This document shows, piece after piece, positions 14,750 to 57,690 of a stretch of 64,000 nt of DNA (within the stretch, counting starts at the first letter, position 1; every line of letters starts with the position of its first letter). The stretch is from Lepidostoma basale (taxonomy: Eukaryota > Arthropoda > Insecta > Trichoptera > Lepidostomatidae). Made by a program: the position numbers and the translations under genes. The notes beneath the pieces were generated by a model, which saw nothing but the letters and a program-made list of their open reading frames with translations, did no database searches and was not told the origin of the DNA. The stretch spans positions 186,001 through 250,000 of the forward strand of contig JAHDVF020001259.1 of the NCBI GenBank assembly GCA_022606425.2, in the 5' to 3' direction.

Positions 14750-14905
14750 TAATAAATTATACAATATAGTAAATTTCAAAATAATAAATTATATAAAAAG
14801 TAGTGACAAATTTGTTTCGCCTTGTGAGGACATTTTCGGTTTGAGAATGCCCTCGCCAGACGAAACAAATGTGTGACTACTTTCAATTTATAAACTGTTA
14901 AATTA
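14750..14905. repeat. HH foldback (ACAAATTTGT type), decayed
   Basis: Inverted arms (tagtgacaaatttgtttcg and cgaaacaaatgtgtgacta) surround a 40-bp centre. On the minus strand GAAA is followed by the 10-base palindrome-forming CAAATTTGT and then C, matching the HH plan with a longer stem III. The core box is mutated. Confidence 0.55.
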
Positions 14906-14934
14906 AAAAAACTTTGTTTTATGTATCACAATTA

Positions 14935-15182
14935 TATACTTATGAAATTGAAAATAACTTTGTTTAATCCATTATTTATTAAAAAATATTTTTAAAAACA
15001 CGACATGTTTCGAAGGATACCTCCATTTTCAGGTGTAAAAATATTATATAATTTATATTTTTACACCTGAAGATGACCTCCTCCGAAATATGTCGTGTTT
15101 TTTTAGTAAATAGTGGATTAAACAAAATTATATTCAATTTCCTAAGTATATTACTATGGAATTCCACAGTGTTAATGCCTTA
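14935..15182. repeat. HH foldback (ACATGT, CTGAAGA type)
   Basis: Both arms are present, with outer sequence tttgtttaatccattattt and its inverted partner. The plus arm has CTGAAGA (15067-15073) and GAAATATGTC; the minus arm has CTGAAAA. The right flank ggaattccacagtgttaatg (15159-15178) recurs at 28446, 37376 and (inverted) about 16530. Confidence 0.75.
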
Positions 15183-15185
15183 GCG

Positions 15186-15570
15186 CTCAATAAGTTCACA
15201 AATGAATTTTTATTTTACGCGACAGCTGTTTCATCAACCTATGTTGACATCATCAGGTGTTACAATAATATATCAAATGTAAATTTTCTTGATTTTTCGA
15301 ACCTTTTTGTGTATTTGTTTCTATGTCAATTTGAATAATTTCTTCAATATAACTTTGACATAGGAACAAATACACATAAAGGTTCGAAAATTTACGAAAA
15401 TTTAACATTTGATATATTATTTTAACACCTGATGATGTCAACATTGATTGACAAAACAGCTGTCTCGTAAAATAAAAATACAATTATACATTTAAAAAAA
15501 ATCAATTTAACAGTTTATAATGTTAAAGTATCATAGTGTTTCGGCCAAAAAATGGACTTTTAATATAATT
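15186..15570. repeat. HH foldback (ACAGCTGT type), both arms
   Basis: Arms of about 130 bp surround a centre near 15345. The minus arm keeps a near-consensus core (separate entry); the plus arm has CTGATGA (15429-15435) but GAAAC mutated to AAAAC. The right flank runs to a cactatgat...ggccgaaaca-type block (15530-15560, minus), the boundary sequence also seen at 28630, 33350, 33530, 34915 and 54350. Confidence 0.75.
15217..15260 (-). ncRNA. Hammerhead-ribozyme-like motif
   Basis: Minus strand: stem I strand ACAC (15257-15260), core CTGATGA (15250-15256), one unpaired T, stem II GTCAAC/GTTGAT with a 4-base loop, GAAAC, self-complementary ACAGCTGT, then C (15221) as the expected cleavage position and GCGT. 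Stem I has one mismatch. Motif recognition only; activity is inferred. Confidence 0.55.
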
Positions 15571-15710
15571 TATTATAATATATAAATTTAATCCAAGTAA
15601 AATCATTAAACAATCGTGTTTACTATTGGGTATAAACGCATAAAACATAATCTTAATCCAATCCTAATAGATGGCGCTAGTGTAGATTGAAAAAAAATGT
15701 GAAGTGTGGT

Positions 15711-15958
15711 GTTACATTGTAGCATAAATACATCTTCCAAAAATTTGTCAGACATGGTAGTCGTAAGAAGGGCGGAATGGGTAATGTTGTATTACATAAA
15801 GCTTGCGCTTAACCCAATTAATGACAGGTCATAAGTCCTGTAAACACCTCGACCACCATATTCTGTTCCAATTGACATCTTGCATTTGAGATACAATTAA
15901 TCCTTAAATATGATAACCCGCAATGGGTTAAATTCAGTATTTGTATACATTCAAAATG
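15711..15958 (-). repeat. R-family copy
   Basis: Matches 2400-2580 in the same orientation (gtaagaagggcggaatggg, aacaccctcgacca-type middle) and ends with a acccgcaatgggt hairpin arm at 15929-15945. Confidence 0.7.
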
Positions 15959-16440
15959 TTGCATAAAACATATTTTTAATTTAATAATATCGCGAAGATT
16001 TGATCACATTTTTTTTCCGTTACAACTCTCGCAATGAACATCAAAGAGATTGGTCAGAGAGATTTCAACGACTCCAAGTTTATGGTGCATGAAATCACGG
16101 ACCGTGAAGAGATTTATCAATTACCTCTTCACCCAACTGGGCCAAGGCCGCAAGGAGTAAATATACTTCTAAAACTAATTGACAAATCCGGTTATCTCAT
16201 CGGCTCCAAATCAAATTACAGGGGAGTTTGGAGATAAAAAGATGCTGTTCAAATTAAGCTCTACGCGGGAATTCCGTAATGAATACAGCCCTCTAGTTGT
16301 GGTATTGTATGATAAATCAAATTCAAGATATTTACTCACTGTGAATAGCGTAGGAACAGGGCAATGGAATGAGATGTTTACCTGAAACAAACAACAAAAA
16401 CAATCAGGTACAAAAGTTATCGCATAAAAGGTTTTTAGTT
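15959..16440. other. Unassigned stretch with a short open frame
   Basis: A 67-residue frame (16034-16237, MNIKEIGQRDF...) and an overlapping 68-residue frame (16179-16385) are open. I recognise no domain and see no splice evidence, so I do not call a gene. Composition is closer to coding than its neighbours, so a decayed element ORF is possible. Confidence 0.3.
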
Positions 16441-16445
16441 AGACT

Positions 16446-16520
16446 GAAGATTGAGAAAAATAGGTTCAGACCGAGGAAAATGTGATACGATCTAATTAAT
16501 CAAATATTAGAGTATTGAAA
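16446..16520 (+). mobile_element. NLR-A fragment
   Basis: Encodes a decayed RFRPRKM-DLINQILEY version of the RGRPRKTWHDQINQIL segment. Confidence 0.55.
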
Positions 16521-16521
16521 G

Positions 16522-16615
16522 CTAAGGCATTAACACTGTGGGATTTCATAGTAACATATTAAAAAACACGTCATGTTTCGTAAGACACCTCCATCTTCAG
16601 GTGTTAATATATAAT
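16522..16615 (-). repeat. HH half-element (CTGAAGA type)
   Basis: Outer flank (complement of ccacagtgttaatgcctta), then ACATGA (minus; 16571-16576), GAAAC (16575-16579) and CTGAAGA (16594-16600). Stem II is decayed (GGAGG against CTTAC). The second arm is absent. Confidence 0.6.
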
Positions 16616-16846
16616 ATAAACTAAACAAAGAAAGGCTTATATAAAAAAAACGCATTTAAATTTCGATACAATAATTTAAATTTAAATAACCTGGGCTAAT
16701 TGTTATAAGTAGTAATAATTATTTTTTATCCATAAGAACTAATAAATAATATCAAATAATAATAACACATAATAATAATATATAAATATAAAATTGTAAT
16801 TTAGAAAAAACGTACATTTGAAAAGACATAATTTATATTAAAAAAA

Positions 16847-17293
16847 AAACTAACTAACTAACCATCACGCCGTCTCTCCAAAGGGGTAGGCAGAAAGAAT
16901 TTACTGCCACACTTTTCTTTCCTGGCATATTTCTCTAGATTCCTTAACATTCCGCTACGTTTTCCTCGGTCTTTCACTATTTCTAGTTCCATTTATATCG
17001 TTAACATATATATATTTTTTACCATTCTTTCTTCATTCCATCTTTCGATGTGTCCAAACCATATTAATGGTCCTTTCATTATTTTGTTCATAACACCATC
17101 ATTCGCACCGCATTCACTTCTTATATTTTCATTCGACACTCTATCATACACAGAGTATCTACACATTCGTCTAAGAGATCTCATTTCTACTGCATTTATT
17201 ATACTTTCATCCTTCTTTTGCCAGTTCCATGCTTCGCTTCCATACATAAGGGTCGGTAGAAGAACACCATTGTGCACTGCCATTCTAACTTCT
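16847..17293 (-). mobile_element. NLR-A C-terminus
   Basis: Tail and hairpin at 16847-16895. Then VKNIYM-, WFGHIERWNEER, MNKIMKGPLI, ECGANDGV, MCRYSVYDRVSNENI and HNGVLLPTLMYGSEAWNWQ, with internal loss of the RNRRAC region near 16950. Ends at a 5' truncation near tatacatatagacatcacg (17292-17310), which resembles 12385. Confidence 0.8.
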
Positions 17294-17299
17294 TTATAC

Positions 17300-17360
17300 A
17301 TATAGACATCACGCATCTGCCTACCCTTTCGGAGAGATGGCGTGATGGTTAGTTAGTTCG
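17300..17360 (+). mobile_element. NLR-A 3' tip in opposite orientation
   Basis: Only the last about 50 bases (ctaccctttcggagagatgg, stop, gttagttagttcgtta tail) abut the minus copy to the left. Confidence 0.65.
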
Positions 17361-17449
17361 TTATGAATTAATACATGTGAATGTTTCATTTAATGTTGTA
17401 ATCGCCAACAAAACTCCATCCAAAAAGCTAAGATGACAGTAATTCATTC

Positions 17450-17656
17450 AAAACTGACTAACTAACTACAATAAAGCTGTCTCTTGGAAGGGGTAGGCAG
17501 AAATAATGGACCGTCACAATGTTTTTTTCCTGACATGCTCTCGTTTCCTCAAAGTTCATACATCGTTTCATGCATGCACCTCGATTTCTACGACCACTCA
17601 CGTGGCCGATATTGAATATTTTATTGATTAGATGCTGCCACGTTTTCCTCGGGCTT
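17450..17656 (-). mobile_element. NLR-A 3' fragment
   Basis: Tail at 17456-17468, mutated hairpin (tctcttggaaggggt), then the complement of RNRGACMK and the INKIFNIGHV region up to PRKTW. 17361-17449 is unassigned. Confidence 0.65.
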
Positions 17657-18150
17657 AAGATGACTGGGGAAATTCATTCAAATTAATAATAAAACAAAAA
17701 TATTTGATGTTTTCAGTGTACATTACCTAAGCAAAAAAAGGTTTTCTATATTTAATGAAATGGGCAGAACACCCCACCCTTCAAAGGCTCATAAACCGTG
17801 TTTATATCGCGTTTTGTCGGAATATTTGTATTGCTAAATTTAATTTCCGGGCCCAGCGCCACAATGAATGTTAATTCCGAAGCTGAAATCCGACAGAAAA
17901 TTGTATTAATTTGCCCTTTTTAATCAAATGTCAATATATCGGTAAGCAAATTTTAATTCCTGAAATGTATATTCGCATAATATTGTATCGTGTAATTTTT
18001 TTACGAGAATTCTTTCGACAAATTCATAAGCGCCGAAATGTGTACTTTTTTTTATTAACTGACATTCCTGACAATGATCACTTAGACGGTATGGACATAT
18101 GGAAAATATAAATGAAAAAAAAATGGATAAAAATATATGGATATATATAA
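17657..18150. other. Unassigned stretch
   Basis: Unique-looking DNA. A short open frame (17911-18111) lacks recognisable features. No repeat match was noticed. Confidence 0.25.
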
Positions 18151-18665
18151 TGGAACTAACTAACTAACTAACTAACCATCACGCCATTTCCCGGAAGGGG
18201 TAGGCAGAGAGGATAGTTAGCCACAATGCACTGTCCTGGCATACCCCTCGGGCATCCACTACATTCATACATCGTACCATGCACGCACGTCGATTATTCC
18301 GACTTCGAATGTGACCGCCTTTTAGTAATTGATTAATTTGGTCATGCCATGTTTTCCTCGATCGTCCTCGGCTTCTTTTTCCACTCACGCTGCTTGTGTA
18401 CAACTTTTTTTAACCATTCGACTCTCATCCATACGTTCCATATGTCCAAACCATCTCAGGGATCCTTTTTTAATTTTATCCATGATGCAGTCATTTGCCT
18501 AACATTTCTTTCTTATTTCATCGTTCGGTATTCTATCATACAACGTTTTCCCGAACATTCTTCTTAGTGATCTCATTTCTACGGCGTTTATCCTGCTTTC
18601 GTCCTTATTTTGCCAGCTCCAAGCTTCACTTCCATACATGAGGGTTGGCACTAGAACTCCATATA
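18151..18665 (-). pseudogene. NLR-A C-terminus, subfamily with open 3' frame
   Basis: The frame 18403-18179 encodes GKRSRGRSRKTWHDQINQLL, RNNRRACMVRCMNVVDAR and ends LTILSAYPFREMA-stop, showing that the terminal hairpin is coding. Upstream come MDKIKKGSLRWFGHMERMD-like, VGENYV and LMYGSEAWSWQNKDESR segments with frame breaks. The five-unit aactaactaac tail is at 18151-18177. Confidence 0.8.
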
Positions 18666-18764
18666 TAATGGAAAAATATATATAAGCAGAGGGAATAGAA
18701 AAGAAAACCCGAAATCGGTGGAGGCATGACTAATTTAATGTGTTACTAAAACGCAACAACATTC

Positions 18765-18914
18765 AAAGTCGGAAAAATCGACGAGTGTGCTTGTTACGAT
18801 GTATAAACTAGTGGAAACTCAAGCGGTATATTAAGGGGGAGCAGTGTGGCGGTCCATACTCACTGTCTACCCCTGCGGGGAAACGGCGTAATGGTTGGTT
18901 AAGTGAGTTAGTTC
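18765..18914 (+). mobile_element. NLR-A 3' fragment
   Basis: Decayed RNRRACLLRCIN region, VWRSILTVYPCGETA-like end with hairpin ctacccctgcggggaa, and a ggttaagtgagtta tail. Confidence 0.65.
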
Positions 18915-18922
18915 TGACATTC

Positions 18923-19066
18923 AATCGGATGGTGGTCTACGGGGTAAAACGCTTGGCTCCTGATCCAGGGGACTTGGGTTCAAGCCTGGACACAACCAGA
19001 TTTGTTCATAATAATAATAAGCTTTTTTCTTATCAAAGATCGCAAAATAAATTCTAATACCATTTC
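18923..19066 (+). mobile_element. SINE-1, 3'-truncated
   Basis: Same tRNA-like head as 14521 (A box tggtctacggg; B box ggttcaagcc) and the first part of its body up to caaaataaattctaatacc, where similarity stops. Confidence 0.75.
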
Positions 19067-19136
19067 TCTTTTTCTTTTTTATATACCTTGTATATACAAA
19101 ACTTACATAATCTACATAATACATAATCTACATAAT

Positions 19137-19412
19137 ACGTATTTATTGTTTCTTGAACAATGATGTAAAACTCCATCTTAAATAATTAATACGAATGAAA
19201 ACGTCAGTTTTCTAGAAGTTTGATTATATTTTATGGGAATCACATGTTTCGTCCTTCTAAGGCATTATCAAATGTGGCAATCAATTCAAAGGCAAATGTG
19301 GTATCAAATGTCTAATGCCTTAGAAGGGCGAAACATGTCATTCCCATAAAATATAATAAAACTTCTAGAAAACTGACGTTTTAATTCGTATTAATTATAC
19401 ATAATAAATAAT
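19137..19412. repeat. HH foldback (ATGTC type), both arms
   Basis: Outer tips are atttattgtttcttgaacaa and a related inverted end. The right arm reads tgccttagaagggcgaaac then atgtcattcccat; the left arm is its inverse. Stem II is GCCTT-AGA-AGGGC and stem III is ACATGT. The box upstream is degenerate, so cleavage is doubtful. Confidence 0.8.
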
Positions 19413-19454
19413 ACGTGACTAGACGTAGTTTATAGTGTTTAGTTGTAAATTGAA

Positions 19455-19830
19455 AGAGGAGAAATGGAAAGAGCCATGTTAGGAATAATATAGGAATAAT
19501 AGACAGAGTCAGAAACGATACGGTGAGAGAAAAAACAAAGGTCACTGACATTATCCACCGGGTGACGACTCTAAAATGGCAATGGGCGGGTCACGTAGCC
19601 AGAAGCTCAGATGAAAAATGGACAAGAAGACTGCTGACTTGGAGACCGTGGACGGCGAAGAGAAGTGCAGGACGACCGCAACTACGGTGGAAGGATGATC
19701 TAAACAGACACGTCGGAATAACCTGGATGCAGTCTGCACAGGACAGAATGACATGGAAGCAAATGGAGGAGGCCTCTGTCTAGGAGTGGACGGGAATAGG
19801 CTGAGGAAGAAGATTAAGAAGAAGTTGTAA
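19455..19830 (+). pseudogene. RTE-D reverse transcriptase C-terminus, near-intact
   Basis: From 19464 MERAMLGI (with a short duplication aggaataata), RVRNDTVREKTKVTDIIHRV, TLKWQWAGHVARSSDEKWTR, RPWTAKRSAGRPQLRWKDD and WMQSAQDRMTWKQMEEASV to a TAG at 19781. The GH and GRP-RW motifs are diagnostic of RTE-like C-termini. A GAA-rich tail is at 19805-19829. 5'-truncated. Confidence 0.85.
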
Positions 19831-20400: not shown

Positions 20401-20407
20401 AGACAGG

Positions 20408-20550
20408 AAATTCTTATATATACGAGTATACACATATACACACATACATATGCACCTATACATATGTGCATATATATAAACATACACTTATATACGTATA
20501 TACAAATACACACATACACATATATGGTAAATACGCACACATACACATTA
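20408..20550. repeat. Interrupted AC/AT microsatellite
   Basis: Alternating tacacatatacacacataca-like runs. The ORFs read across it on either strand are low-complexity artefacts. Confidence 0.8.
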
Positions 20551-27800: not shown

Positions 27801-28240
27801 TGATTAACTATGAATAGCCTACATAAAAATCAAATAGTTCCACTGTTTTTCATAGTGTTAAATCAGGTGAAACCCCCCTTTTATTATTCGAGCGATTAGT
27901 TCCACGCATACAAAATATACAAGAAGGCCGATTGGCTTTGTATCTTCTGCGCGGGGAGCCACGGATCAATATGTAAAGCATAGAGTATAATCGAATTCAT
28001 TAAACAGTCCACTTTGAGACTTCACGGGTCATTAAACTATTGGCAGTTCGGTACAATTCACATCGAGGGAGCTTAAGCGGCAATAATGTTGATTATTGTA
28101 TATCCCTCTGAAGGGATGGCTCGCATGCGGGGGGTTAACTTAATCGCAAACGCGGATTAAAATGCGGATTATTGCGATATCACGATCGGCGGGCATGCTT
28201 TATTATTGAACAAGAAAAAAACATATGCATACAAACATGA
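27801..28240. other. Unassigned stretch
   Basis: Unique-looking DNA, moderately GC-rich at 27950-28180. No ORF recognised. Confidence 0.25.
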
Positions 28241-28470
28241 AACGTACTTAAGAAATTGAAAAACTTTATTTAATCCTTATTTAATAAAAAAATAGTAAAA
28301 AACACGACATGTTTCGGAGGATACCTCCATCTTATATTTTTACACCTGAAGATGGAGGTATCCTCCGAAACATGTCGTGTTTTTGAAAAAAAAATTTAAA
28401 TAGTGGATTAAATAAAGTTTTTCAAACTCCTTAGTATAATACTATGGAATTCCACAGTGTTAATGCCTTA
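28241..28470. repeat. HH foldback (ACATGT, CTGAAGA type), young
   Basis: Highly similar inverted arms (aattgaaaaactttatttaa and its partner; acacgacatgtttcggagga and its partner). The left arm lacks the four bases at the apex of the core, so the loop is short. Right flank ggaattccacagtgttaatg at 28446-28465. Confidence 0.8.
28342..28380 (+). ncRNA. Hammerhead-ribozyme-like motif, best preserved
   Basis: Stem I ACAC (28342-28345) pairs perfectly with GTGT (28377-28380). Core CTGAAGA (28346-28352), one unpaired T, stem II GGAGG/CCTCC (28354-28358, 28362-28366) with TAT loop, GAAA (28367-28370), self-complementary ACATGT (28370-28375) and C at 28376, the predicted cleavage site. The minimal stem III implies action as a dimer. 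The extra T between core and stem II is unlike textbook hammerheads. Confidence 0.6.
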
Positions 28471-28683
28471 GAGTTCAATAAACATGAAATAAACTGCCAT
28501 TACTTCTATAATAATACAAATATTTAACAGACAGACAGACAGAAATGCTTTTTTTCTTGTATACAACAGGTCGTTTGAACCCAATTACTGTTTACACATT
28601 ATTTTTACTCTATTGTTTTGGCCGAAACACTATGACGCCAACATTTTAAACTGTTAATGAATAAACTTTGTTTTTTAGCCATT

Positions 28684-28849: not shown

Positions 28850-29010
28850 TAAAGGGGTTAATACTGCGGAATTCCATTCTAATTTTAAAAACCAACGCTG
28901 TTTATGTCCCACTTTAATTTATTATATATTTTCAAAAAATATAAATATTAACCATGACATGTTTCGGAGGCGACCTCCATCTTCAGGTGTAAATATATAA
29001 CAATGTATAT
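28850..29010 (-). repeat. HH half-element (CTGAAGA type)
   Basis: The outer flank (complement gaattccgcagtattaac, 28858-28875) is followed by one arm with an intact motif. No second arm. Confidence 0.65.
28952..28990 (-). ncRNA. Hammerhead-ribozyme-like motif
   Basis: Minus strand: CTGAAGA (28980-28986), unpaired T, stem II GGAGG/CCTCC with loop TCG, GAAA, self-complementary ACATGT (28957-28962) and C. Stem I strand ACAC is kept, but its partner has mutated to ATGG. Confidence 0.5.
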
Positions 29011-31640: not shown

Positions 31641-31790
31641 ACAAGGCTCCATTACAGGCGCCTTCCCCTGCCCCAGATGCCCCAAAATATGTGGGTCCAG
31701 GATGGGACTCTTCAGTCACATGCGGACCCACAACCGTGAAGGACAGTATTCCTCGGACACGAGGGACAGCCGATGATTATGATGATGACC
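31641..31790 (+). pseudogene. C2H2 zinc-finger end of the same RTE-like element
   Basis: Plus frame: ITGAFPCPRCPKICGSRMGL then FSHMRTHNREGQYSSDTR and stop at about 31776. C-x2-C...H-x3-H is intact (PCPRCPKIC, HMRTH). A finger at the very C-terminus is known in several RTE-like insect elements. Followed by a gatgatgatg-rich 3' end. Confidence 0.7.
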
Positions 31791-32430
31791 TGTCCGGTGC
31801 ATTGAAGCCATAACACTCCAAGAGGTATGGGTATAAATGAGAGATTCGAGCTTAATTCGAGACTGCGGTACATTGTGTGAATTGTGTATTTTCATAACAT
31901 TTGTTATATTACAGATTATGTATCACGAGGTCAAACGAAACGCGACGGAAGTGACGCTACGCTATTGCGAAACGCCGCAAAACGAATCTATGGAGACATT
32001 CGAAAACCAGAGCCGAATTTCTTAACGGAATCGTTGCCCCAAAATATGTGGGTCCAGGATCAGGCTCTTCAGTCACATGCGGACCCACAACCATGAAGGA
32101 CAGTCTTCCTCGGATACGAGGGACAGCCAATGATGATGATGATGACCTGTCCGGTGCATTGAAGCCATAACACTCCAAGATGTATGGGTATAAATGAGGT
32201 TACGGGGTCTTCTTAATTCGAGACTGCGGTACATTGTGTTAATTGTCTATTTTCATAACATTGGTTATATTACAGATTATGTATCACGAGGTCAAACTTC
32301 ATGCAATAGAAATAATCTGAAATGGGACCGAGACGAAACGCGACGGAAGTGACGCTACGCTATTGCGAAACGCCGTAAAACGAATCTATGGAGACATTCG
32401 AAAACCAGAGCCGAATTTCTTAACGGAATC
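31678..32430. repeat. Direct tandem duplication (357 and 396 bp)
   Basis: Units 31678-32034 and 32035-32430 both start tgccccaaaatatgtgggtc and end cttaacggaatc. Unit 1 lacks 37 bases present in unit 2 (ttcatgcaatagaaataatc region at 32299). Each unit contains the zinc-finger end plus 230 bp of adjacent DNA; ORFs inside are by-products. Confidence 0.85.
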
Positions 32431-32924
32431 CTTGTCCGCTCGAGTGGGCAATGCTCGGGGTGCCAGCGCAAAGTTTCGAGGCCGGTCCAAAAGTTGCGAA
32501 ACGATAATAATTATCGAAAATTCCCGATACATACTATGTGGGTTAAATTATTTATTGACAAAGTAATGTTTTATTTCATGGGCCCCCCATCGGGCTACAA
32601 TCAACGTAAACCACTCCGCTTAATGAAAACTCCGAGTCGGAATGCTTTGATTAACTAATACAACTAGGTGGGAGTATAATTCAGTCAACTTTAGTTTGTT
32701 TTAATCAATTAAGGGCTGATTCGTTCCTTTCGGGTACTTTTGTTTTCAAGCGTTCCAAATTTAAAAGCAATCAAAAATGTACTCGGGGAAACCAAGAAAA
32801 TTAAATTCGGAAGATTTTCTATTTGTTTATATAAATTAAAATACAAAATTGATACAAAAATGATACAAAATTTCTTGCTGTTAAAATATAAAACACTGTT
32901 AAAATAATATTTTTTGTGAATGTA
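32431..32924. other. Unassigned stretch
   Basis: Unique-looking DNA with no ORF above 70 residues that I recognise. Confidence 0.25.
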
Positions 32925-33120: not shown

Positions 33121-33134
33121 TAAATATATCTCAA

Positions 33135-33375
33135 TTTATTTTTATTCACTGAGAATGTCGCAATAGCCGTTTCGCAAACCGATATTGACATCATCAGGTG
33201 TTACAATAATATATTATAGTTTAATGTAAAACCTGATGATGCCAACATCGGTTGGCGAAACAGCTGTCGCGACGCTCTCAGTGAATAAAAATAAATTGTG
33301 ATTATAACAGTGCTTTAAATTTTAAGTAATAATGTTGAAGTATCATAGTGTTTCGGCCAAAACAATGGACTAAAA
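33135..33375. repeat. HH foldback (ACAGCTGT type)
   Basis: Inverted arms with outer parts tttattcactgagaatgtcg and gctctcagtgaataaaaata, centre at about 33220. Right flank contains gaagtatcatagtgtttcgg (33338-33357), the family boundary block. Confidence 0.8.
33229..33272 (+). ncRNA. Hammerhead-ribozyme-like motif with perfect core and stem II
   Basis: CTGATGA (33233-33239), unpaired T, stem II GCCAAC/GTTGGC (perfect 6 bp, loop ATCG), GAAA (33257-33260), self-complementary ACAGCTGT (33260-33267), C at 33268. Stem I is weak (AAAAC against GCGAC). Confidence 0.55.
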
Positions 33376-33515
33376 AAATTCTTTATTATTATATATTTGG
33401 TGTGCTTCTACTTGTGTTCAACGTCGAGCAGTTTCGGCAGCTTGCTGCCATTTTCTGGCAAGTGGAACTACACTAAATATATAATAATAAAGAAATTTTG
33501 AATATTTTTTTTTTT
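33376..33515. repeat. HH-like foldback (GGCAG stem type)
   Basis: Outer arms ctttattattatatatttgg and its inverse (33475-33497). The minus strand has CAGAAAA (33451-33457), one T, stem GGCAG/CTGCC with loop CAAG, then GAAAC (33431-33435). Stem III is not self-complementary here. Confidence 0.55.
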
Positions 33516-33519
33516 AAAT

Positions 33520-33765
33520 AATCCATTGTTTTGGCCGAAACACTATGATACCTTAACATTTTAAACTGTTAAGTTAAATAACTTTGTTTTATGTGTTACA
33601 ATTGTACTTCATTTTACGCGACAGGTGTTTCGTCAACCCATGTTGACATCATCATCCTGATTATGTTAACATAGGTTGACGAAACAGCTGTCGCGTAACA
33701 TAAAATACAATTGTCACACATAATACAAAGTTTTTTTAACTTAACAGTCAACATTTTTTTTTATT
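33520..33765. repeat. HH foldback (ACAGCTGT type), short centre
   Basis: Begins at the boundary block tggccgaaacactatgatac (33531-33550), followed by arms whose inner halves have collapsed around 33655. The right motif reads CTGATTA-T-GTTAAC-ATAG-GTTGAC-GAAA (33657-33684) then the ACAGCTGT block and C; one core base differs. Confidence 0.75.
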
Positions 33766-34384
33766 TTCATTATTTAAAATGAAGTTCTACCACGAAATTT
33801 CAATTAAAAATATTAACTATAAGAAGAAAAATAATGTTTCATTGAAGTTTTATTATATTTTGCGGAGATGACGACGAAATATGAACGCTGTCCTCAATAT
33901 TAATTAGGTTTTAAAGTTTGAAAACTACTACGAATTTATACAATACGCACAAATTAGATTGCCTTTCACATTACATCGGGGTGGTCCGAAACTAGCAGCA
34001 AGCAACAAATAATATTAATTGAAAGCTCTAATAAGTTACTCGGTAAATTTGTTTACCCAATACAGTTGACTGAAAAGACTAATGACCAAATCGGGGAGAT
34101 TTGATTTAATTGGCCCTCCCCCACCCTCTCCAAGCCCACCCCTAAACACGCCGCAAAAACAATCAGAATTTCAAATTTGCTAATAAGATTACAAAGTGTA
34201 ACTGTTTACTTCGATATAACGACTCAATTTTCATCACTTCGAAATATCCATTTGCGCCGAACTCCTCTCCTGATTTATTCAATTAATTTCGTACTTATCC
34301 AAATTGAACTCGTCGCTGAATTCGGCGTAAATAAGACAAGGCATTACAAATTTCGCTTAAAACTCTCCACATAAACGAAAAAAA
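33766..34384. other. Unassigned stretch
   Basis: Mostly AT-rich. 34080-34150 is C-rich (ccctcccccaccctctccaa). A weak aagttttattatattttgcg at 33845 suggests an eroded HH arm. Confidence 0.3.
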
Positions 34385-35063: not shown

Positions 35064-35184
35064 AAAACTAACCATCACACCCTCTCTTCCCGAAAGGGTA
35101 GACAAAAATAATAGATCACCGCACTGCTCTTTCTTGACATACTCTCTCGTTTCCTCAACATTCATGCATCGTGTCATGCACGCA
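35064..35184 (-). mobile_element. NLR-A 3' fragment
   Basis: Tail aactaacc, hairpin cttcccgaaagggta and the complement of RACMTRCMNVEETRE; truncated where an HH element begins. Confidence 0.65.
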
Positions 35185-35189
35185 ATTTA

Positions 35190-35370
35190 TTATATTTTTA
35201 TTTTTCGCGACAGCTGTTTCGTAAACCGATGTTGACATCATCAAGTGTTACAATATTTTTTTCAACAAAATTTAAATTGAAAAAATTATTGTTACACCTG
35301 ATGATGTCAACATCGTCGCGAAAAAAAATTTGATACCATTAACAGTGTTTTATATTTTAAAAGTAAATAT
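35190..35370. repeat. HH foldback (ACAGCTGT type) with core deletion in one arm
   Basis: The minus arm keeps TTGATGA (35238-35244), stem II and GAAACAGCTGTC. The plus arm has CTGATGA (35298-35304) and stem strand GTCAAC, but jumps from catcg to tcgcg, losing the second stem strand, GAAA and stem III. Confidence 0.7.
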
Positions 35371-36235: not shown

Positions 36236-36560
36236 ACAATACCTAGAGTTTTTAAATCGATAAATATCTAGAATTTTTTAAGTAGAGAGATAACTAGAAT
36301 TTTTTAAGTCTAAAATACTAGAATTTTTTGAATCGAAAATAACAAGAAATTTTTAAGTTTAATAATACCTAGATTTTTTTAAGTAGAAAAATAACTATAA
36401 TTTGTTAAGTCGTAAAAGATCCGGAAGTTTTTAAATCGAAAATATCTAGAACTTTTTAAGTTGAATAATACCTAGAATTGTTTAAGTAGAAAAATAACTA
36501 GAATTTATTAAGTCGTAAAACACGTGGAAGTTTTTAAGTCGAAAACTTCCTAGAATTTTA
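36236..36560. repeat. Minisatellite with higher-order repeat
   Basis: About twelve imperfect units of 25-30 bp with the pattern ctagaattttttaagt(c/a)g. The blocks starting aataatacctaga at 36361 and 36464 give a 103-bp higher-order period of several unit types in the same order. Confidence 0.85.
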
Positions 36561-37130
36561 AAATTTGTTAACCGACAAATTAAACTTTCATTTTTTTATA
36601 TTTTTTATTTGTAAGCAGAAACATTATTTAGAAATTACAAAGTTAAATTAACAATACGCAAAGGTTGAACATTGTATTCAAACGCACAGCGAACGAAACG
36701 TATTCATAAAATTAAAAAACATTATTTAAGAGTATTATAATTTGGTTATATAAACAACGTCACAAAACAATGAAAAATTCCATTGTAATTCAAATTAAAA
36801 CAACGGTTTTCTTGATTTCATGGCGAATGTAAACCTCTCCTTTTTACGCGGACTTTATTGTACTTGTTATTTTTCGTGTAGCAATAAATATAATTAAAAA
36901 CAATCTCGGAGGGCGAAAGGGCGCAAGTTCCACGGGGCATTAGCAAGAGTTACGCCCCTTAATCAATTCGGCCCTGGAGGCAGTGGTGACGCGTCACACT
37001 TTTAGCTGGTTCGGCTAACCGACATCAAAATTTCGCATTTTACATGTAGCCGAATGATTTAGACCAATGATTCCCAAAGTAGTATTTACAGACCCCCAGG
37101 GGTCTACGACAACTCGCAAGGCATCCATGT
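36561..37130. other. Unassigned stretch
   Basis: AT-rich to 36890, then a GC-richer unique block (36905-37030) without repeat match or ORF; possibly conserved non-coding. Confidence 0.3.
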
Positions 37131-37400
37131 GAAATTCCATAATAAATATTATTTTATGAATTAAATCACTGTTTTTTTCCACTTTTGAGTTTATTTCCTC
37201 GACATATTTCGAAGGCTTACACCTTTTTCATTGTTTGAACTTTGTTTGTAATAATTTTGATTAGTTTATATTATTCTCCCGATGATGAAAGTGTAAGCCT
37301 TCGAAGCATGTCGAGAAAATAAACTCAAAAGTGGAAAAAAACAGTGTTTTAATTCATAAAAAATTCGTCAATATGGAATTCCATAGTGCTAACGCCTTAA
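37131..37400. repeat. HH foldback (ACATGT, GATGA type)
   Basis: Arms of about 95 bp (gtttttttccacttttgagt and inverse; cgacatatttcgaaggctta and inverse) around a centre near 37250. The right flank tggaattccatagtgctaac is the boundary block of the CTGAAGA type, so the two types share ends. Confidence 0.75.
37274..37317 (+). ncRNA. Hammerhead-ribozyme-like motif
   Basis: Stem I TTCTC (37274-37278) pairs perfectly with GAGAA (37313-37317). Core CCGATGA (37279-37285; second base changed), unpaired T, stem II GAAAG/CCTTC with one mismatch and loop TGTAAG, GAAG (last A changed), CATG, then GTC ending at 37312. Confidence 0.45.
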
Positions 37401-37571
37401 ATTTATCTAAAATTATTTTGTGTTAATGACATTTTTCGCCTGTTTAAGGCATTAAAATTCGAAATAATTAATAAAAAAGATTTTTTTTTAACTTTCGTAC
37501 GAATCACTTTATTTGTTGTGTGACATTATTAAATAAAATAAATTAATACACTTTTAGTAATTTGTATTTAC

Positions 37572-37610
37572 ACCAAACGGTTTCGCTCCAGCCGGAGCTT
37601 CGTCAGGGTG
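37572..37610 (-). ncRNA. Hammerhead-ribozyme-like motif
   Basis: Minus strand: stem I CACC (37607-37610) pairs with GGTG. Core CTGACGA (37600-37606), unpaired A, stem II GCTCC/GGAGC with loop GGCT, GAAAC (37580-37584) and ACCGTT, one change from the self-complementary ACCGGT. Confidence 0.55.
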
Positions 37611-37649
37611 AGAGATTAAACTAAATATGATATATTCAGTTTACTCTCT

Positions 37650-37689
37650 CACCCTGACGAAGCTCCGGCGGGAGCGAAACCGGTTGTTG
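37650..37689 (+). ncRNA. Hammerhead-ribozyme-like motif
   Basis: Core CTGACGA (37654-37660), unpaired A, stem II GCTCC/GGAGC (37662-37666, 37671-37675; loop GGCG), GAAA (37676-37679), self-complementary ACCGGT (37679-37684) and T at 37685. Stem I partner mutated. Confidence 0.55.
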
Positions 37690-37745
37690 TTACCAAATAA
37701 AGTGGTGTTAATACTAAAAGGGTATTTTTATTTTATTTAAAAATG

Positions 37746-46345: not shown

Positions 46346-46432
46346 AAATGACGTAATAAAAAAATAATACTATTTACTTTCATATGAAGCACTTAATTTG
46401 TGGTGTGACATTATTATTTTTTTTAAATATAT

Positions 46433-46655
46433 ATATTGTTTCTCCAACGATGATGTAAAACTCCATGTTAAATAATTAATACGAAAGAAAACGACTGTTT
46501 TCCAGAAGTTTTATTATATTTTATTTGAATGATATTTTTCACCTATGTAAGGCATTATCAAATGTCAAATCTCAATTTGAAAATGTCTTAGACAGGCGAA
46601 ACATGTCATTCGCATAAATTACAATAAAACTTCTATAAAATGGACCTTTTCATTC
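46433..46655. repeat. HH foldback (ATGTC type), both arms
   Basis: Outer tip atatattgtttctccaacga; right arm tgtcttagacaggcgaaac then atgtcattcgcat. Stem II TGTCTTAGACA forms a 4-bp hairpin, different from the copy at 19137 yet still paired. Confidence 0.75.
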
Positions 46656-46679
46656 GGAGAAAACTAATAAATATAATTT

Positions 46680-46830
46680 GTTTTATTACCGCTTTAATTT
46701 TTTTTATTGCAACCACCCGGTTTCTTTCCCATCGGATCTTCCGCTGTTTATTTTGTCACCCTGAAAAACTCCAGTGAGAGCGAAACCGGTTGATTAAAAA
46801 AAAAATATTAAAATTAATAGTATTTTTAAT
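46680..46830. repeat. HH foldback (ACCGGT type), decayed
   Basis: Right motif caccctgaaaaactcc...gagagcgaaac then cggttg (46757-46792); left arm acccggtttctttccc. Core boxes mutated. Confidence 0.6.
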
Positions 46831-52235: not shown

Positions 52236-52269
52236 GTTTTTAATAAAATGTATTTCATTAAATCGGAAA

Positions 52270-52533
52270 ACTTGGTTATTAATATGTATGAAAAAACGAT
52301 AGTTTTCAAGGAGTTTTATTATATTATTTATTTATGACATGTTCGCCTTTATACGGCATTATCAAAAGTAATTTGCATTATCAAAAATCATTTGATAATG
52401 TCTTAGAAGGGCGAAACATATCATACATATAAATATTATAATAAAACTTCTTGAAAACTATAGTTTTTTCATACATATTAATAATTTAATATGGAGTTTT
52501 ACATCGTTGTTCAAGAAACAATAAATAAGGAAA
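52270..52533. repeat. HH foldback (ATGTC type), both arms
   Basis: Arms of about 110 bp: atatgtatgaaaaaacgata and inverse, agttttattatattatttat and inverse. Right motif atgtcttagaagggcgaaac then atatc. The outer right end caagaaacaataaat marks the element tip. Confidence 0.8.
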
Positions 52534-52695
52534 ACTTGGCATGATCAAATCTTTCAAGTATTTAATGTCGGTCACGTGAGGAGTCTAAGAATACGACGTG
52601 CATGGATGACACGATGTATGTGTGTCAGGACAGAACAGTAAGGCGGTTATTCTTTCTGCCTACCCCTTCGGGGAGATGGCGCGATGGTTAGGTGT
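52534..52695 (+). mobile_element. NLR-A 3' end
   Basis: KTWHDQIFQVFNVGHVRSLR then RRAWMTRCMCVRTEQ; hairpin ctaccccttcggggag; stop; single gttagg tail. Confidence 0.75.
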
Positions 52696-52854
52696 TTGTA
52701 GGTGGAATATTATTTTTTTTAAACGGTGGAAAAAACTGCTTATTAGTTTGTTCTTTAAATGAAGCAAGTTGATTAACATAAGTTTTTTACTTTGTTTAAT
52801 TTTTTTTCATATTTAAATTGCTCTAAAGATTATTCAAAGAATTATTTAGAGAAT

Positions 52855-53015
52855 GCATGCGTTATGAATAAAATAATGAAAGGATCAATTAGATAGTTTG
52901 GACATATTGAAAGAATGAATAAAGAAATAATGTTAAAAAAAGGGCTATGCTAACGATGTGTACGGAACTAGAAATTGAGGAAATCCGAGGAAAACGTCAA
53001 TATGAATGTTGAGAT
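52855..53015 (+). mobile_element. NLR-A internal fragment
   Basis: VMNKIMKGSIR-FGHIERMNK then frameshifted ANDVYGTRN-GNPRKTS-YEC. 53016-53379 is AT-rich and unassigned. Confidence 0.6.
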
Positions 53016-53379
53016 TTCGCTAAAAAAATGTAGTAGATATATATTTTTTTTCTTCACAAATGCTCCTTCGAAGATTACTTCTAAGATGGCTTAGCCGTTA
53101 ATCCCGGCTTAAAGGCAAAGAAAATAAAAATATTACTCATTTTCTAAGAGTCTAAAATATCCGTAGAAACATATTCGAAATCCGCTAAGTCCGCGAATAT
53201 GGATTATTTCGGTAAAAATATATTATGCCATATAATCGCAATATATTTTTATTAAAAATGAAAATAAATTCATTAATATGAGTGAAATGTCTTGACTTAT
53301 ATACTTTCATAAAAAAGCACTTAATTTTTGTTGTGACATTATTTAAAACCCTTGTATTCTTTGTTTTTATACAACTTTA

Positions 53380-53440
53380 TTTTTTTTTTATAGAAACAGA
53401 AGGGTTTCGCTCCTGCCGAAGCTTCGTAAGGCTTACAAAA
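53380..53440 (-). repeat. HH half-element (ACCGGT type)
   Basis: Minus strand CTTACGA-A-GCTTC-GGCA-GGAGC-GAAACCC (53404-53432): core changed at one base and stem II carries a mismatch. No partner arm. Confidence 0.5.
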
Positions 53441-53467
53441 ACAAACTGAATAATTATCAGAGAAACA

Positions 53468-53630
53468 CGTCCTTGGTGGCCGAGTGGTAAGTGCTTTGAC
53501 TGCCACCCTGAAGGTCCCAGGTTCGATTCCCGGCTTTGTCACACTGTCGTTGGTCTGGCGCAGAGTTCATGTGACAATAAAACGGCGATATATTAGCTAC
53601 CTATCACATGTCATGAGAATCAATATGATA
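53468..53630 (+). mobile_element. SINE-2, full length
   Basis: tRNA-like head with A box tggccgagtgg (53477-53487) and B box ggttcgattcc (53520-53530). The body cactgtcgttggtctgg then gtgacaataaaacggcgata ends gtcatgagaatcaatat. It resembles class-II tRNA heads (Ser/Leu) but the shared body in four copies shows it is a SINE. Confidence 0.8.
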
Positions 53631-53713
53631 ACTTTACCATTTACATCGATTTGGCTCGCGCTGTTATGATGTAAAGAGCGATTAATAAAATAATAATAAT
53701 ACATAATAAATTG

Positions 53714-54212
53714 TGTTCTTCTACCGACCCTTATGTATGGAAGCGAAGCATGGAAGTGGCTAAAGAAGGATGAAAGTAGAATAAATGCAGTAGTAATGAG
53801 ATTTCTAAGACGAATGTGTGGATACTCTGTGTATGACAGGGGGTCGAATGAAAATATAAGAAGTGAATGCGGTGCGAATGAGGGTGTTATGAACAAAATA
53901 ATGAAAGGATCATTAAGATGTTTTGGACATATGGAAAGAATGAATGAAGAAAGAGTGGTAAAAAAATTAAATGTAAATGGAACCAGAAATAGAGGAAGAC
54001 TGAGGAAAACGTGGCACGATCAAATAAATCAAATATTGAATGTCGGCCATGTGAGGAGTCAGAGAAACCGACGCGCGTGCATGACACGATGTATAAATGC
54101 TGAGGAAGCGAGAGAAATATGTCAGGAAAGGAAAGTGTGGCAAGTCCATTTTTATTTTTGCCTACTCCTTCGGGGAGACGGCATGATGGGTAGTTAGTTA
54201 GTTAGTTTTAGC
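53714..54212 (+). pseudogene. NLR-A reverse transcriptase C-terminus
   Basis: Open frame 53733-54197: MYGSEAWKWLKKDESRINAV, RRMCGYSVYDRGSNENIRSE, MNKIMKGSLRCFGHMERMNE, GTRNRGRLRKTWHDQINQIL, RSQRNRRACMTRCINAEEAR, EICQERKVWQ. One inserted base near 54142 shifts the last 15 residues. Hairpin ctactccttcggggag and gttagttagttagtt tail at 54194-54208. Confidence 0.85.
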
Positions 54213-54329
54213 ATTTAATAGTACCTTAGCAAGACGAAACATTTTATTCCCAAAATTGGCATTTTCAGCAAAAGTCTTAGCAGCATTAACTATGTCGTGA
54301 AATACAATATTAATATAAATTCACTAAAA

Positions 54330-54600
54330 CATACATTTTAGTTTATTGTTTTGGCCGAAACACTATGATACTTTTATAACTGTTTAATTAACAACACTGT
54401 TATAATGTCACAATATTTTTATTACACACTTTTTGAGAATGTAGTGACAGCTATTTCGCCAACCGATGTTGGCATAATCAGATATCGGATGGCGAAACAC
54501 CTGTGGCGACATTCTCTAAAAGAGTATCATAAAAAAATGTGAAATTATATAATATAAATAGTGTTGTAAATTAAAAAATTAAAAAAGTATCATAGTGTAT
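54330..54600. repeat. HH foldback (ACAGCTGT type)
   Basis: Left boundary block ttggccgaaacactatgata (54351-54370). Arms ctttttgagaatgtagtgac and cgacattctctaaaagagta. The plus motif is mostly deleted; the minus motif is entered separately. 54213-54329 holds a faint HH remnant (cgaaacattttattccc). Confidence 0.75.
54446..54485 (-). ncRNA. Hammerhead-ribozyme-like motif
   Basis: Minus strand CTGATTA (54475-54481; G8 position changed), unpaired T, stem II GCCAAC/GTTGGC with loop ATCG, GAAA, then TAGCTGT (one change from CAGCTGT) and C. Stem II is perfect. Confidence 0.45.
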
Positions 54601-55206
54601 ATAGGTTCCCAAATAGGGCCCACTTCGGGAACCTAAGCTCTAGAACATAAATAGGGAATAAAAGTTTCAGACATTTTCAAAAGATTCAAAAAATATATTC
54701 GTTAACAAAACTTCCGTTACAGTTAGTCGCCATAGAACCTATTGAATAAATACGAAGTATTAACATCCACAAAACTGATAACTGTGCATTTTAAAACTGT
54801 AAAACAACAGATAATTAATGAGTTAAATGTATATAAATCTGGTAAGAACGTTTAACACCTTTAACTCGGAAAAAAGTAGCATCATAATAGTTTTTTATAT
54901 ATAAAAAAGTTTTAAGTGTAAAATATAGCATTGAAATAAATAGACAAAAAGTGTTTATGAAATAAAATAAATAATGCCAATTAATTTTTTTTTTATTTAA
55001 TTTTACACGCTAATCGAAATCTATAACTATGTTTTACTGAAACGTAATAAACGTGAAAATAAAAAAAAAAACGCTTTTGATAAATTATTTTCAAAAAAGC
55101 ACGAAATTCCGGTGTCAACTCTGTAAATTCATGAACAAAATCTAAATTTATTTCAAAATAATTTTTAAAAAACCAAAGAGTTAATAACCAAATTTAGAAT
55201 TTTCAT
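54601..55206. other. AT-rich unassigned stretch
   Basis: Contains gggcccacttcgggaaccta near 54617. No gene, no repeat match noticed. Confidence 0.25.
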
Positions 55207-55345
55207 ATTTATTGTTTCTTGAACAATGGAGTAAAAATCCATATCAAATAATTAATACGAATGAAAACGTCTGTTATCTAGAAGTTTTTTTATAATTTAT
55301 GCAAATGACATTCCCATAAATTAAAATAAAACTTCTATAACTGTC
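55207..55345. repeat. HH foldback (ATGTC type), collapsed centre
   Basis: tttattgtttcttgaacaat to gaagtttttttataatttat, then directly acattcccataaattaaa; the hairpin motifs between the arms are deleted. Confidence 0.7.
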
Positions 55346-55399
55346 ATGTTAGATGCAAAATATCATAGTACGAAACGATTTACCGCGTGTTTAATATCT

Positions 55400-55700
55400 T
55401 CTTTTTCTTCAAGTGCCCTGTCGGGTCCCCCTAAAGTTGGCGATCACCTCGGCGAACATGTCCCTGTCCTGCGCCGCTTGAAATAGCTCCTCCACACTTC
55501 GGATGCCGGTCCACTCCCTCACGTTTTGCAGCCAGGACATTTGTCTCCTAGCGGGCCCTCGGCGTCCCTCAATTTTCCCCTCCAATATCAGTTGGAGAAG
55601 GTGGTACTTTTCCCCACGCAGTATTTTTATTTATAAACATACAATAGTTACATTGTATTCCCATGAGTAGAAGATCTTTCGAACTTTGATAGTTGATAAC
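55400..55700 (-). mobile_element. RTE-C C-terminus, interrupted
   Basis: Complement of the 13242 copy: C-terminal GDPTGH-like end, MFAEVIANF, LQNVREWTGIRSVEEL, GRRGPARRQMSW, KYHLLQLILEG (55402-55622). A 43-bp AT-rich insert (55623-55665) separates it from NYQSSKDLLL-like residues (55666-55700). Confidence 0.75.
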
Positions 55701-55889
55701 AGTTAATTTAACAGTTCAATATAAAAACATTTAAATAAAATTAAAATATTTTAAATATAAAAATATAAAATAATAAAACACATCGTATTTAACCACGGTA
55801 TGGTTATTATAATTGATGCCAACTAATTTCGCTCAAACCCAAGCTTCAATAGAACAATATAATAACTGTTGAAACTAGTTGGCATCAAT

Positions 55890-56060
55890 TGGCGACCTTC
55901 GTGGTGGTAAGAGCTCCGACTTCCATTCTCAAGGTCCCGGGTTCGATTCCCGGCGATGGCAGTGTGATTGTTACACTGTCATTGGTCTGGTGTAGAATTC
56001 ACGTGGCAATAAAATGGCGATAGATTGGCTACCTATCACATGTCATGAGAATCAATATAA
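55890..56060 (+). mobile_element. SINE-2, A box deleted
   Basis: Head shortened around gcgaccttcgtggtggtaag; B box ggttcgattcccgg (55940-55953); body and end atgtcatgagaatcaatata intact. 55701-55889 includes an inverted pair gttggcatcaattg/aattgatgccaac... at 55813 and 55878. Confidence 0.75.
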
Positions 56061-56680
56061 TAGCTAAAATAAATTGTATACATTAATTGGGTTCAAACGA
56101 CCTGTTGTATAGGTACGAGGATAAAAAATAATAAATAATAAATTAATAAAAATTATAATAACCATATCGTGAATAAATACAAACTGTTTTGTTATTTAAT
56201 TTATATAAGTTATATATTTTATTTTATATTTGACCAGACATTCATTTGTGTCAATACTAGAGATTGATTTGCAGCAAAGTCTATAAATATCTTTGTTGGT
56301 TCCTTGGATGCCATTTACGCCTTTTTCCACCAGATTATTTATTAGAATAAACCGAATTTTCGTATTAAGCGTCTACGCGTTAAACAATTTCTACTGTACA
56401 CAATGAAGATAAATTTTAAACACATTGACATCATTTAAAATATAACAGGTAAGTTACTGTATATATTTTCTTTGGGAATAATACAAATGGTTCTCTTAGA
56501 AAATCTTAAGTTATGTTTTACGGTCCATTCTGATTCTTTAGTGAACGTCATAAATCATTTTGAAAAATGTTAAATCCCTAACATAGCAAACTAAACTAAA
56601 CAAAAAGTGTTAGATAAAATATTGTTCTCTCTAACAACACAACACAGAGTATTCTAATTTTAAATATATCAATATATAAC

Positions 56681-56851
56681 AGCGACCTTCATGGCAGATT
56701 GGCAAGAGTAATGACTGCCACACTGAAGGTCCCGGATTCGATTCCCGGAGATGGCAGTATAATTTTCACATTGTCTTCGGTCTGGTGTAGAATTCACGTG
56801 ACAATAAAACAGCGATAGATTAGCTTATTATTACATGTCATGAGAATCAAT
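56681..56851 (+). mobile_element. SINE-2, full length
   Basis: Head cagcgaccttcatggcagat, B box ggattcgattcccgg, body tcggtctggtgtagaattca, end catgtcatgagaatcaatag. 56061-56680 is AT-rich and unassigned. Confidence 0.75.
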
Positions 56852-57003
56852 AGTATACAAATGTGGAAAGCAACAGGAAACTACCACGTTAAAAAGTGCC
56901 CTAGTGGCAACATAAGAACCAGCAAAAATGTTACACTTTGCGGCAAACGAATCCATTGAATTGAATCTAAAGAAGAAGACAAAGCGTGTTCAATCTACTC
57001 GTA

Positions 57004-57150
57004 ATTAATATGAATGAAAACATCTGTTTTCTAGTTTTATTGTAATTTATGGGAAAGACATGTATCGCCCGTCTTAGGCATTATAAAATATGACAATGCC
57101 TTTGAAATGCGAAAAATGATATTTCCATAAATTACAATTAAATTATTGAT
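57004..57150. repeat. HH foldback (ATGTC type), decayed
   Basis: atgaatgaaaacatctgttt, gacatgtatcgcccgtctta, then aatgcctttgaaatgcgaaa. Both cores mutated. 56852-57003 unassigned. Confidence 0.65.
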
Positions 57151-57244
57151 GGTTAAAGTATTAGTTTTGTTAAACTCCGCTATAATTTTTTAACAAAATA
57201 GTCCATTGTTCTGAAACACTAAGATACTTCAACATTATTAAGTA

Positions 57245-57690
57245 TTATAATAATTAAATAAAAAGATGTTTTTAACTACTTCCACTTTTGTCTTTATTTC
57301 AACAATGATCGGTTGCGCCAGGCTCGCTGGCATCGACAGACAGGTGACACTATTGCAAATCAAGTCCATTAATATACACACAGATCTGGGGTGGTAAACA
57401 TAATTCTATACAAAACTTTACTGAATTTAAATATTGTTATTATTCCAGAAGATTCATATTCAATACAATGGATTTTAAATGTAATACCAATATTTGAATT
57501 TTACATAAATATTTTTGATTATTTTTGTATAGAATCATGTTTACCACCCCTGATCTGTATGTATTTAAAGGACTCGGTTTGCAACAGTGTCACCAGTCTG
57601 TCGATGCCAGGTAGCCTGACGAAAACGGTCGCTGCCGAAATAAAGACAAAAGTAGAAGTAGTTAAAAAAAAGATAGATTTATTTAATTAT
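57245..57690. repeat. HH foldback (ACCGGT, CTGTCGA type), largest copy
   Basis: Arms of about 170 bp: tttttaactacttccacttt and inverse (57655-57674 region), gtttaccacccctgatctg and inverse, agaatcatgtttaccacccc and inverse. The 103-residue plus frame that crosses it (57391-57702) is fortuitous. The centre 57420-57520 is AT-rich. Confidence 0.8.
57594..57634 (+). ncRNA. Hammerhead-ribozyme-like motif, CTGTCGA variant
   Basis: Stem I CAGT (57594-57597) pairs with GCTG (57631-57634; one G-T). Core CTGTCGA (57598-57604), unpaired T, stem II GCCAGG/CCTGAC with one mismatch and loop TAG, GAAA (57621-57624), then ACGGTC, one base from ACCGGTC. Confidence 0.45.

Follow-up and report, generated by a model that had tools for sequence, protein, structure and literature searches.

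Short inserts that fold back on themselves and carry hammerhead-ribozyme-like motifs occur in a 64 kb stretch of the genome of Lepidostoma basale (assembly GCA_022606425.2, contig JAHDVF020001259.1, positions 186,001 to 250,000, forward strand; hereafter the window), and their closest described counterparts are found among Penelope-like elements (PLEs). In Adineta vaga, PLEs have inverted pseudo-long terminal repeats (pLTRs) joined head-to-head with palindromic junctions and target-site duplications (TSDs) of 8–10 bp; an optional 31-bp tail stands at one 3′ end, and pLTR plus tail contain 12–22 codons of the open reading frame (ORF) (PMC3846280). In the Anolis PLE Poseidon PAc, both DNA strands are cut and then extended by the element's own protein. 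Reverse transcription begins within the RNA, at a point 111–118 nt inside the ORF, and the tail consists of the sequence separating two reverse-transcription start sites. The ORF begins at hammerhead stem II with the cut 26 bp downstream; hammerhead mutants show normal insertion in vitro, and the ribozyme depends on the protein (PMC11167929). Type I hammerheads are also described from retrozymes, small non-coding repeats arranged in same-strand tandem and giving rise to circular RNAs (PMC7229834).

The foldbacks of the window very probably derive from Penelope-like retrotransposons of several families, which left them behind as short insertions. With the Adineta vaga PLEs they share head-to-head inverted pLTRs, palindromic junctions and a one-sided tail, and three of them have likely TSDs of comparable length; they differ in that the arms neither enclose nor adjoin an ORF, the two pLTRs account for the whole insert, and several families occur within 64 kb. 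As in the Anolis element, the ATG of the hammerhead stands at the foot of stem II (in family F1, the cut lies 25 nt from the A of this ATG) and there are two end positions with a tail between them. Unlike the 111–118 nt of that element, however, insert ends here fall at 84–93 and 125–131 nt, and a second start codon resembling an ORF start is present at +85–103. Minimal type I hammerheads, the subject of Cervera and de la Pena in 2014 and Lunse et al. in 2017, are reportedly dispersed in animal genomes and in the pLTRs of PLEs. The motifs of the window share with them the CUGANGA...GAAA core, a stem III that is minimal or missing, and possible action as dimers, whereas U3/A8 in place of C3/G8 in family F4, the inverted pairs and the decay of most catalogued copies set them apart. 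A literature search of limited reach returned no account of hammerhead-bearing head-to-head pLTR stubs, and we do not claim that such stubs are undescribed; the kind of element is already known, and what we describe are further PLE-type inserts.

Among 106 inverted pairs, the 25 longest have arms of 36–106 nt, and 16 of these 25 belong, by our own count, to the families described below. The inverted arms noted in a preliminary description of this DNA are thus real and extend beyond the motif. Its picture of paired motifs stands for the arms but not for the motifs, since the core is intact on both arms in one foldback only (37570–37690), and in the foldback at 28298–28384 the box on the left arm is missing its CTG. 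Similar arms also occur beyond the range of 14750–57690 first given, at 1558, 2642, 2699 and 2887, with an F4 foldback at 2600–2741. In the foldbacks of families F1–F6 the arms are inverted head-to-head with the 3′ sides of the motifs pointing outward; the arm identity profiles among the evidence are ungapped. The families, as well as the sets of 45 arms, 15 inserts and 34 arms to which the counts below refer, were all chosen by hand, and the looser families F4, F5, F6, F7 and F9 were added by eye.

Likely boundaries were placed for three inserts of 237–267 bp with likely TSDs of 9–11 bp, in which one end is longer than the other by 32, 40 or 47 nt (a one-sided tail). An F1 insert at 28243–28479 (+), with head-to-head pLTR arms and the tail on the right, is flanked by the 10-bp repeat AAACATGAAA (28233–28242 and 28480–28489); it holds a core-intact motif at 28346–28376 (+) with a predicted cut after 28376 and a stem I of ACAC/GTGT paired at 4/4 positions, and its tail (28444–28479, +) contains a start codon opening MEFHSVNAL. 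An F4 insert at 52276–52528 (+), whose right-hand tail (52491–52528, +) opens MEFYIVV, has the 11-bp TSD GGAAAACTTGG abutting both ends (52265–52275 and 52529–52539). The third, an F4 insert at 19141–19407 (−) with the tail on the left, is bordered by the candidate 9-bp TSD ATAATACGT (19132–19140 and 19408–19416), a repeat chosen by eye on the ground that it directly adjoins each end of the insert. In the bounded inserts, the nearer and farther ends are 84 and 131 nt (F4), 88 and 128 nt (F1) and, by our own arithmetic for the other F4 insert, 93 and 125 nt away from the A of the motif ATG.

We propose that each foldback would consist of two head-to-head copies of the 5′ pLTR region of a PLE RNA. 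The copied unit would begin with part of the leader, continue with a type I hammerhead motif of minimal form (its spacer base mostly making an ATG) and about 90 nt, and at one end would be followed by a tail holding the conserved start codon. The PLE protein would make a staggered cut at the target, and reverse transcription would be primed from both DNA ends (two-sided target priming), with each start inside the RNA at about either +84–93 or +125–131. Each complementary DNA (cDNA) would run to the 5′ end of the RNA, and the two short cDNAs would be joined 5′ end to 5′ end. Such priming and joining would leave 3′ ends that face outward and a junction that falls within the box or close to it, as well as a one-sided tail, a TSD of 9–11 bp and a missing ORF. 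The Penelope-like origin suggested in the preliminary description gains support from the head-to-head arms, the one-sided tail, the likely 9–11 bp TSDs and the similar end offsets.

The motif is genuine and far above chance. Under a strict definition (CTGANGA, spacer of 0–5 nt, hairpin stem of 5 bp or more, GAAA), it occurs at six sites in the window, with a spacer of 1 nt in all six, which bears out the single unpaired base first noticed between box and hairpin. First-order Markov resamplings (Markov-1), which served as background for all motif scans, gave expectations of 0.005–0.01 sites per spacer class and 0.035 overall (200 sequences). A looser motif (stem of at least 3 bp, GAA, spacer 0–2) recovered the identical six sites versus a mean of 0.56 and a maximum of 3 (100 sequences), and a relaxed scored scan yielded 8 versus 0.05 at a score of at least 12 and 15 versus 1.6 at a score of at least 8 (20 sequences). 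When core-intact is taken to mean C3/G5/A6/G8/A9, GAA, a full stem II, A15.1-U16.1 and H17, the same six sites are the only intact ones among 45 hand-catalogued arms; the initial count of about 30 places therefore concerned a real motif but mixed intact with decayed arms. Stem II measures 5–6 bp in these six. Besides 28346–28376 (+), stem I is paired at 4/4 positions in the F3 arm 37606–37575 (−), at 3/4 in the F2 motif at 15221–15256 (−) and the F3 arm 37654–37685 (+), and is weakest in a single F1 arm at 28956–28986 (−; 2/4) and the F2 motif at 33233–33268 (+; 1/4), whose cut is predicted after 33268. The cut positions named earlier, 28376/28377 and 33268/33269, agree with the placement given by the hammerhead rule. 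Stem III is palindromic in five of the six, so that pairing is possible only between two RNAs, as has been proposed for PLE hammerheads; in 37606–37575 (−) it pairs at 2/3 positions. Minimum free energy folds of the isolated motifs predict the stem II hairpin in five of six, with 33233 (+) favouring another fold. In form, these features fit a minimal hammerhead whose stem III is very short and self-complementary, any catalysis being putative. A covariance-model search, proposed as a check in the preliminary description, found no Rfam hammerhead at gathering score in the whole window; the sole hammerhead match at E ≤ 10 was HH9 at 46748–46808 (18.8 bits versus a gathering score of 52; E 7.1), overlying an F3 arm at 46782, and the remaining matches at that threshold were mostly long hairpins matching microRNA families by chance.

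We then considered what the inverted layout might be for. The suggestion that it puts one active ribozyme on the transcript of each strand, with cleavage in dimers, could draw on the foldback at 37570–37690, intact on both arms, and on the stem III blocks of intact copies, which are mostly palindromes and could pair between molecules. Yet only 6 of 45 arms are intact, so paired cleavage is unlikely to maintain the layout, and a single insert has both motifs intact. Whole-foldback transcripts (six inserts, both strands) are predicted to form one long hairpin each (−91 to −158 kcal/mol), with −10 to −16 kcal/mol predicted for the six isolated motifs, and hammerhead mutants of the Anolis PLE still insert in vitro (PMC11167929). 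A functional device of this kind is thus very unlikely, and the inverted layout more plausibly arose as a side effect of the way the inserts formed. The ribozyme is probably a passenger in the foldback, with its relevance, if any, probably in the parent RNA.

The label of retrozyme, also used at first, is not supported by the anatomy. Metazoan retrozymes likewise carry type I hammerheads, in non-coding repeats that are short and about as large as these inserts (PMC7761336, PMC7229834), but the motifs here are inverted and tails are present. No same-strand tandem hammerheads 150–400 nt apart, the arrangement required of a retrozyme, were found in the window: paired motifs lie on opposite strands, and where two F2 motifs do share a strand, at 33257 and 33681, each is part of a separate insert, the two inserts being oppositely oriented. 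Arms also continue beyond the cut into the tail. We consider the spread of small tandem hammerhead repeats through circular RNA, as in animal non-LTR retrozymes, extremely improbable as the source of these inserts.

The six strict sites fall into three families, F1 (stem II GGAGG/CCTCC, block ACATGT), F2 (stem II GCCAAC or GTCAAC, block ACAGCTGT) and F3 (stem II GCTCC/GGAGC, block ACCGGT); F4 has the stem II GCCTT/AGGGC. The spacer base is mostly the U of ATG in F1, F2 and F4, and A in F3. Stem II differs between families with pairing kept, although the families were partly selected for pairing. Within F2, 90% of cells pair, and pairing falls to 17–39% when the stem alignments are slid. The stem changes noted at first lie mostly between families; shuffled partners within F2 pair as well in 172 of 500 cases, and within-family covariation contributes little. 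A further stem type given then, CATGTC/GACATG (at about 2642, − strand), is a single decayed copy with an extra base ahead of GAAA. In F4, TTGA[TA]AA is present in 8 of 15 aligned arms and CTGANGA in none of the 15, a change of C3 to U together with G8 to A. These two positions pair in the active hammerhead fold, and the double change C3G/G8C partially rescues cleavage in the Anolis PLE (PMC11167929). Either compensation within the core or decay of a master copy may account for U3-A8, and it counts as one event because the F4 copies have a common ancestor. Only tentatively do we entertain the wider proposition that these inserts are a recurrent non-autonomous product of PLEs, formed in several families by two-sided priming within their own 5′ pLTR, and that F4 in addition carries a naturally compensated U3-A8 core. 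In F5 the box reads TTGAGAA on one arm and CCGAAAA on the other. Separately, the interval 33372–33518 between two F2 inserts contains a hairpin followed by GAAAC, CCAGAAAA-T-GGCAG/CTGCC-GAAACTGCTCG (F7), which may represent an additional family or one insert nested in another.

On the tail side, an ATG opening similar peptides lies at +85 to +103 from the A of the motif ATG in 12 of 34 arms, drawn from five families: MEFHSVNAL (two) and MEFRSINPF in F1 (3/6), ML[KR]YHSVSAK (three) in F2 (3/10), MEFYI[IV]V (three) in F4 (3/10), MEFHSANAL and MEFHMDA in F6 (2/2) and MNFHQEI in F9 (1/2), with none in F3 (0/4). The remaining arms have no ATG at the tail position or an unrelated one. The sequence ATGRARTTYYAY occurs ten times in the window, one occurrence being the complement of another, versus 1.07 expected and a maximum of 5 (200 Markov-1 sequences). 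Judging by these peptides, the tail start codon looks like the opening codons of a parent ORF. We rejected its identification with a known PLE N-terminus, as no match was present among 201 PLE proteins. A pattern that would be encoded by the reading frame of hairpin plus GAAAC and is therefore expected, M-x(4-6)-E-T, precedes the N-terminal block in 6 of 36 PLE proteins (shuffles 0.33, maximum 3, 0 of 2000 reaching 6), the pattern having been selected after examples were seen and the 36 proteins being mutually related. Two PLE-related protein searches comprised the best 120 proteins among the matches listed, and a protein search with a PLE N-terminal region returned the query itself only. Tail-like sequence is also seen downstream of an F2 insert at 33779–33815 (ATGAAGTTCTACCACGAAATT, MKFYHEIS). 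A conserved GTATCATAGTGTTTCGGCCAAAACAATGGACTA-like block, the F2 tail, occurs at 33331–33372, 33519–33560, 15542, 28624, 34919, 54357 and 57213, some of these being places with no adjoining motif.

Several observations weigh against an origin of the foldbacks from PLEs by two-sided priming. TSD-like repeats of at least 9 bp flank only 5 of 15 inserts, two of these repeats being of low complexity, and repeats of at least 9, 10 and 11 bp arise in 4.9, 2.4 and 1.1% of random window pairs (n = 2000). TSDs of 11, 10 and 9 bp accompany 3 of the 15 inserts, one of them eye-picked, and the other 12 have no clear TSD, as is the case for the F2 inserts; at 19141, the automatic longest match is another 9-mer, TACATAATA. 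The core is broken in 39 of 45 arms, F2 covariation (10 arms) does not exceed that of shuffled partners, and F1 and F6 align at 67% over 158 columns, so the families are not all independent. The M-x-F-[HY] start of the tail is found in none of the 201 PLE proteins retrieved, and arms are mutual best matches in only one of five F4 foldbacks. Finally, the link to PLEs is drawn from the anatomy of the inserts, and the parent elements are presumed from it.

The poor matching of arms would suit a variant of the PLE reading in which the palindromes are inherited as units, a palindromic RNA resembling that of short interspersed nuclear elements (SINEs) being recopied by PLE proteins. In a MAFFT alignment, however, the two arms of the F4 insert at 52276 are more closely related to one another than to any other arm, as a single RNA source for both would predict, and junctions vary from insert to insert by eye. 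Identity within F4 inserts ranges from 0.59 to 0.89, versus a between-insert mean of 0.71, and the between-insert values (left–left 0.744, right–right 0.689, left–right 0.723) give no left- or right-specific lineage. We regard this variant as unlikely. Long inverted arms, short non-coding units and TSD-like repeats in some inserts would likewise suit foldback DNA transposons or miniature inverted-repeat transposable elements (MITEs) moved by a transposase, with an incidental resemblance to hammerheads. The three bounded inserts are nevertheless asymmetric, one end being 32–47 nt longer, where symmetric terminal inverted repeats would be required; the constant 1-nt-spacer motif is far above chance, and the spacing from motif to start codon is common to several families. 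Transposase-driven movement is accordingly improbable, and insertion by PLE machinery is the reading that we retain.

The window, with a G+C content of 32–38% and numerous repeats, contains a reverse transcriptase ORF at 10299–11099 (RVT_1, E 2.9e-22). A tblastn search with 201 PLE proteins detected no PLE coding sequence in it: the best match (E 0.015) spans 39 residues on the strand opposite to a long interspersed nuclear element (LINE) ORF, in agreement with the initial remark that no Penelope ORF is visible. Such an absence is expected if the inserts are stubs, and foldbacks that have no reverse transcriptase or GIY-YIG ORF are at most stubs rather than autonomous PLEs. The window also contains a tandem array with periods of 26, 77 and 103 bp (36238–36559), a segment of about 400 bp duplicated in direct orientation, its copies 85% identical (31678–32437), and a large inverted repeat at 79% identity over 968 aligned columns (62931–63849), apparently of LINE-like sequence.

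Further members of the families complete the catalogue. A second F1 insert at 14927–15185 (+; right end approximate) has both motifs broken and a tail opening MEFHSVNAL at 15156, and an F4 foldback at 46429–46656 (−; ends approximate) has the tail peptide MEFYIIV on the left. The F2 motif at 33233–33268 falls within an insert of that family at 33128–33372 (+; left end approximate) with the tail on the right, followed in opposite orientation by one at 33519–33748 (−) with the tail on the left; an F2 insert at 15191–15560 (+) has extra inverted sequence in its centre, and F2 foldbacks lie at 35183–35323 (no tail) and 54329–54598 (−; tail on the left). The F6 foldback at 37130–37405 has MEFH start codons on both sides and seems to be tailed at both ends. 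The F5 foldback (14790–14890), with the block ACAAATTTGT, is decayed, and the F9 foldback (57269–57710) has the box CTGTCGA and the MNFHQEI start codon at 57699.

Beyond the window, five pattern scans of viral contigs gave 0, 0, 1, 0 and 0 matches, the single match having no hairpin, and no PLE loci were found in these contigs; BLAST of one insert against phages and of one against plasmids returned no match. A pattern scan of genome contigs gave 88 stretches, near our chance expectation, four of which have a hairpin of at least 4 bp. One of these alone also has a 4-bp stem I by eye (L022; JAIRPW010000049.1, titled as a Zoogloeaceae metagenome-assembled genome; our guess at its source is a termite gut). 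Its motif at 6576–6622 (−), CCCC-CTGAGGA-T-hairpin-GAAACATGTC-GGGG, lies within an AT-rich stretch and has no inverted partner and no Rfam support. The G+C content of this contig drops near 2.1 kb from 52–63% to 35–42%, and the AT-rich part looks eukaryotic; the contig is probably chimeric or contaminated.

The insertion of PLEs is poorly understood, and in these short inserts the junction and the tail can be read alongside the TSD and the two ends, which makes priming from two ends and its RNA sites testable through genome statistics. If the PLE reading is true, some inverted repeats that are readily filed as MITEs would be PLE stubs, and the hammerhead in such stubs would be a passenger of the pLTR.

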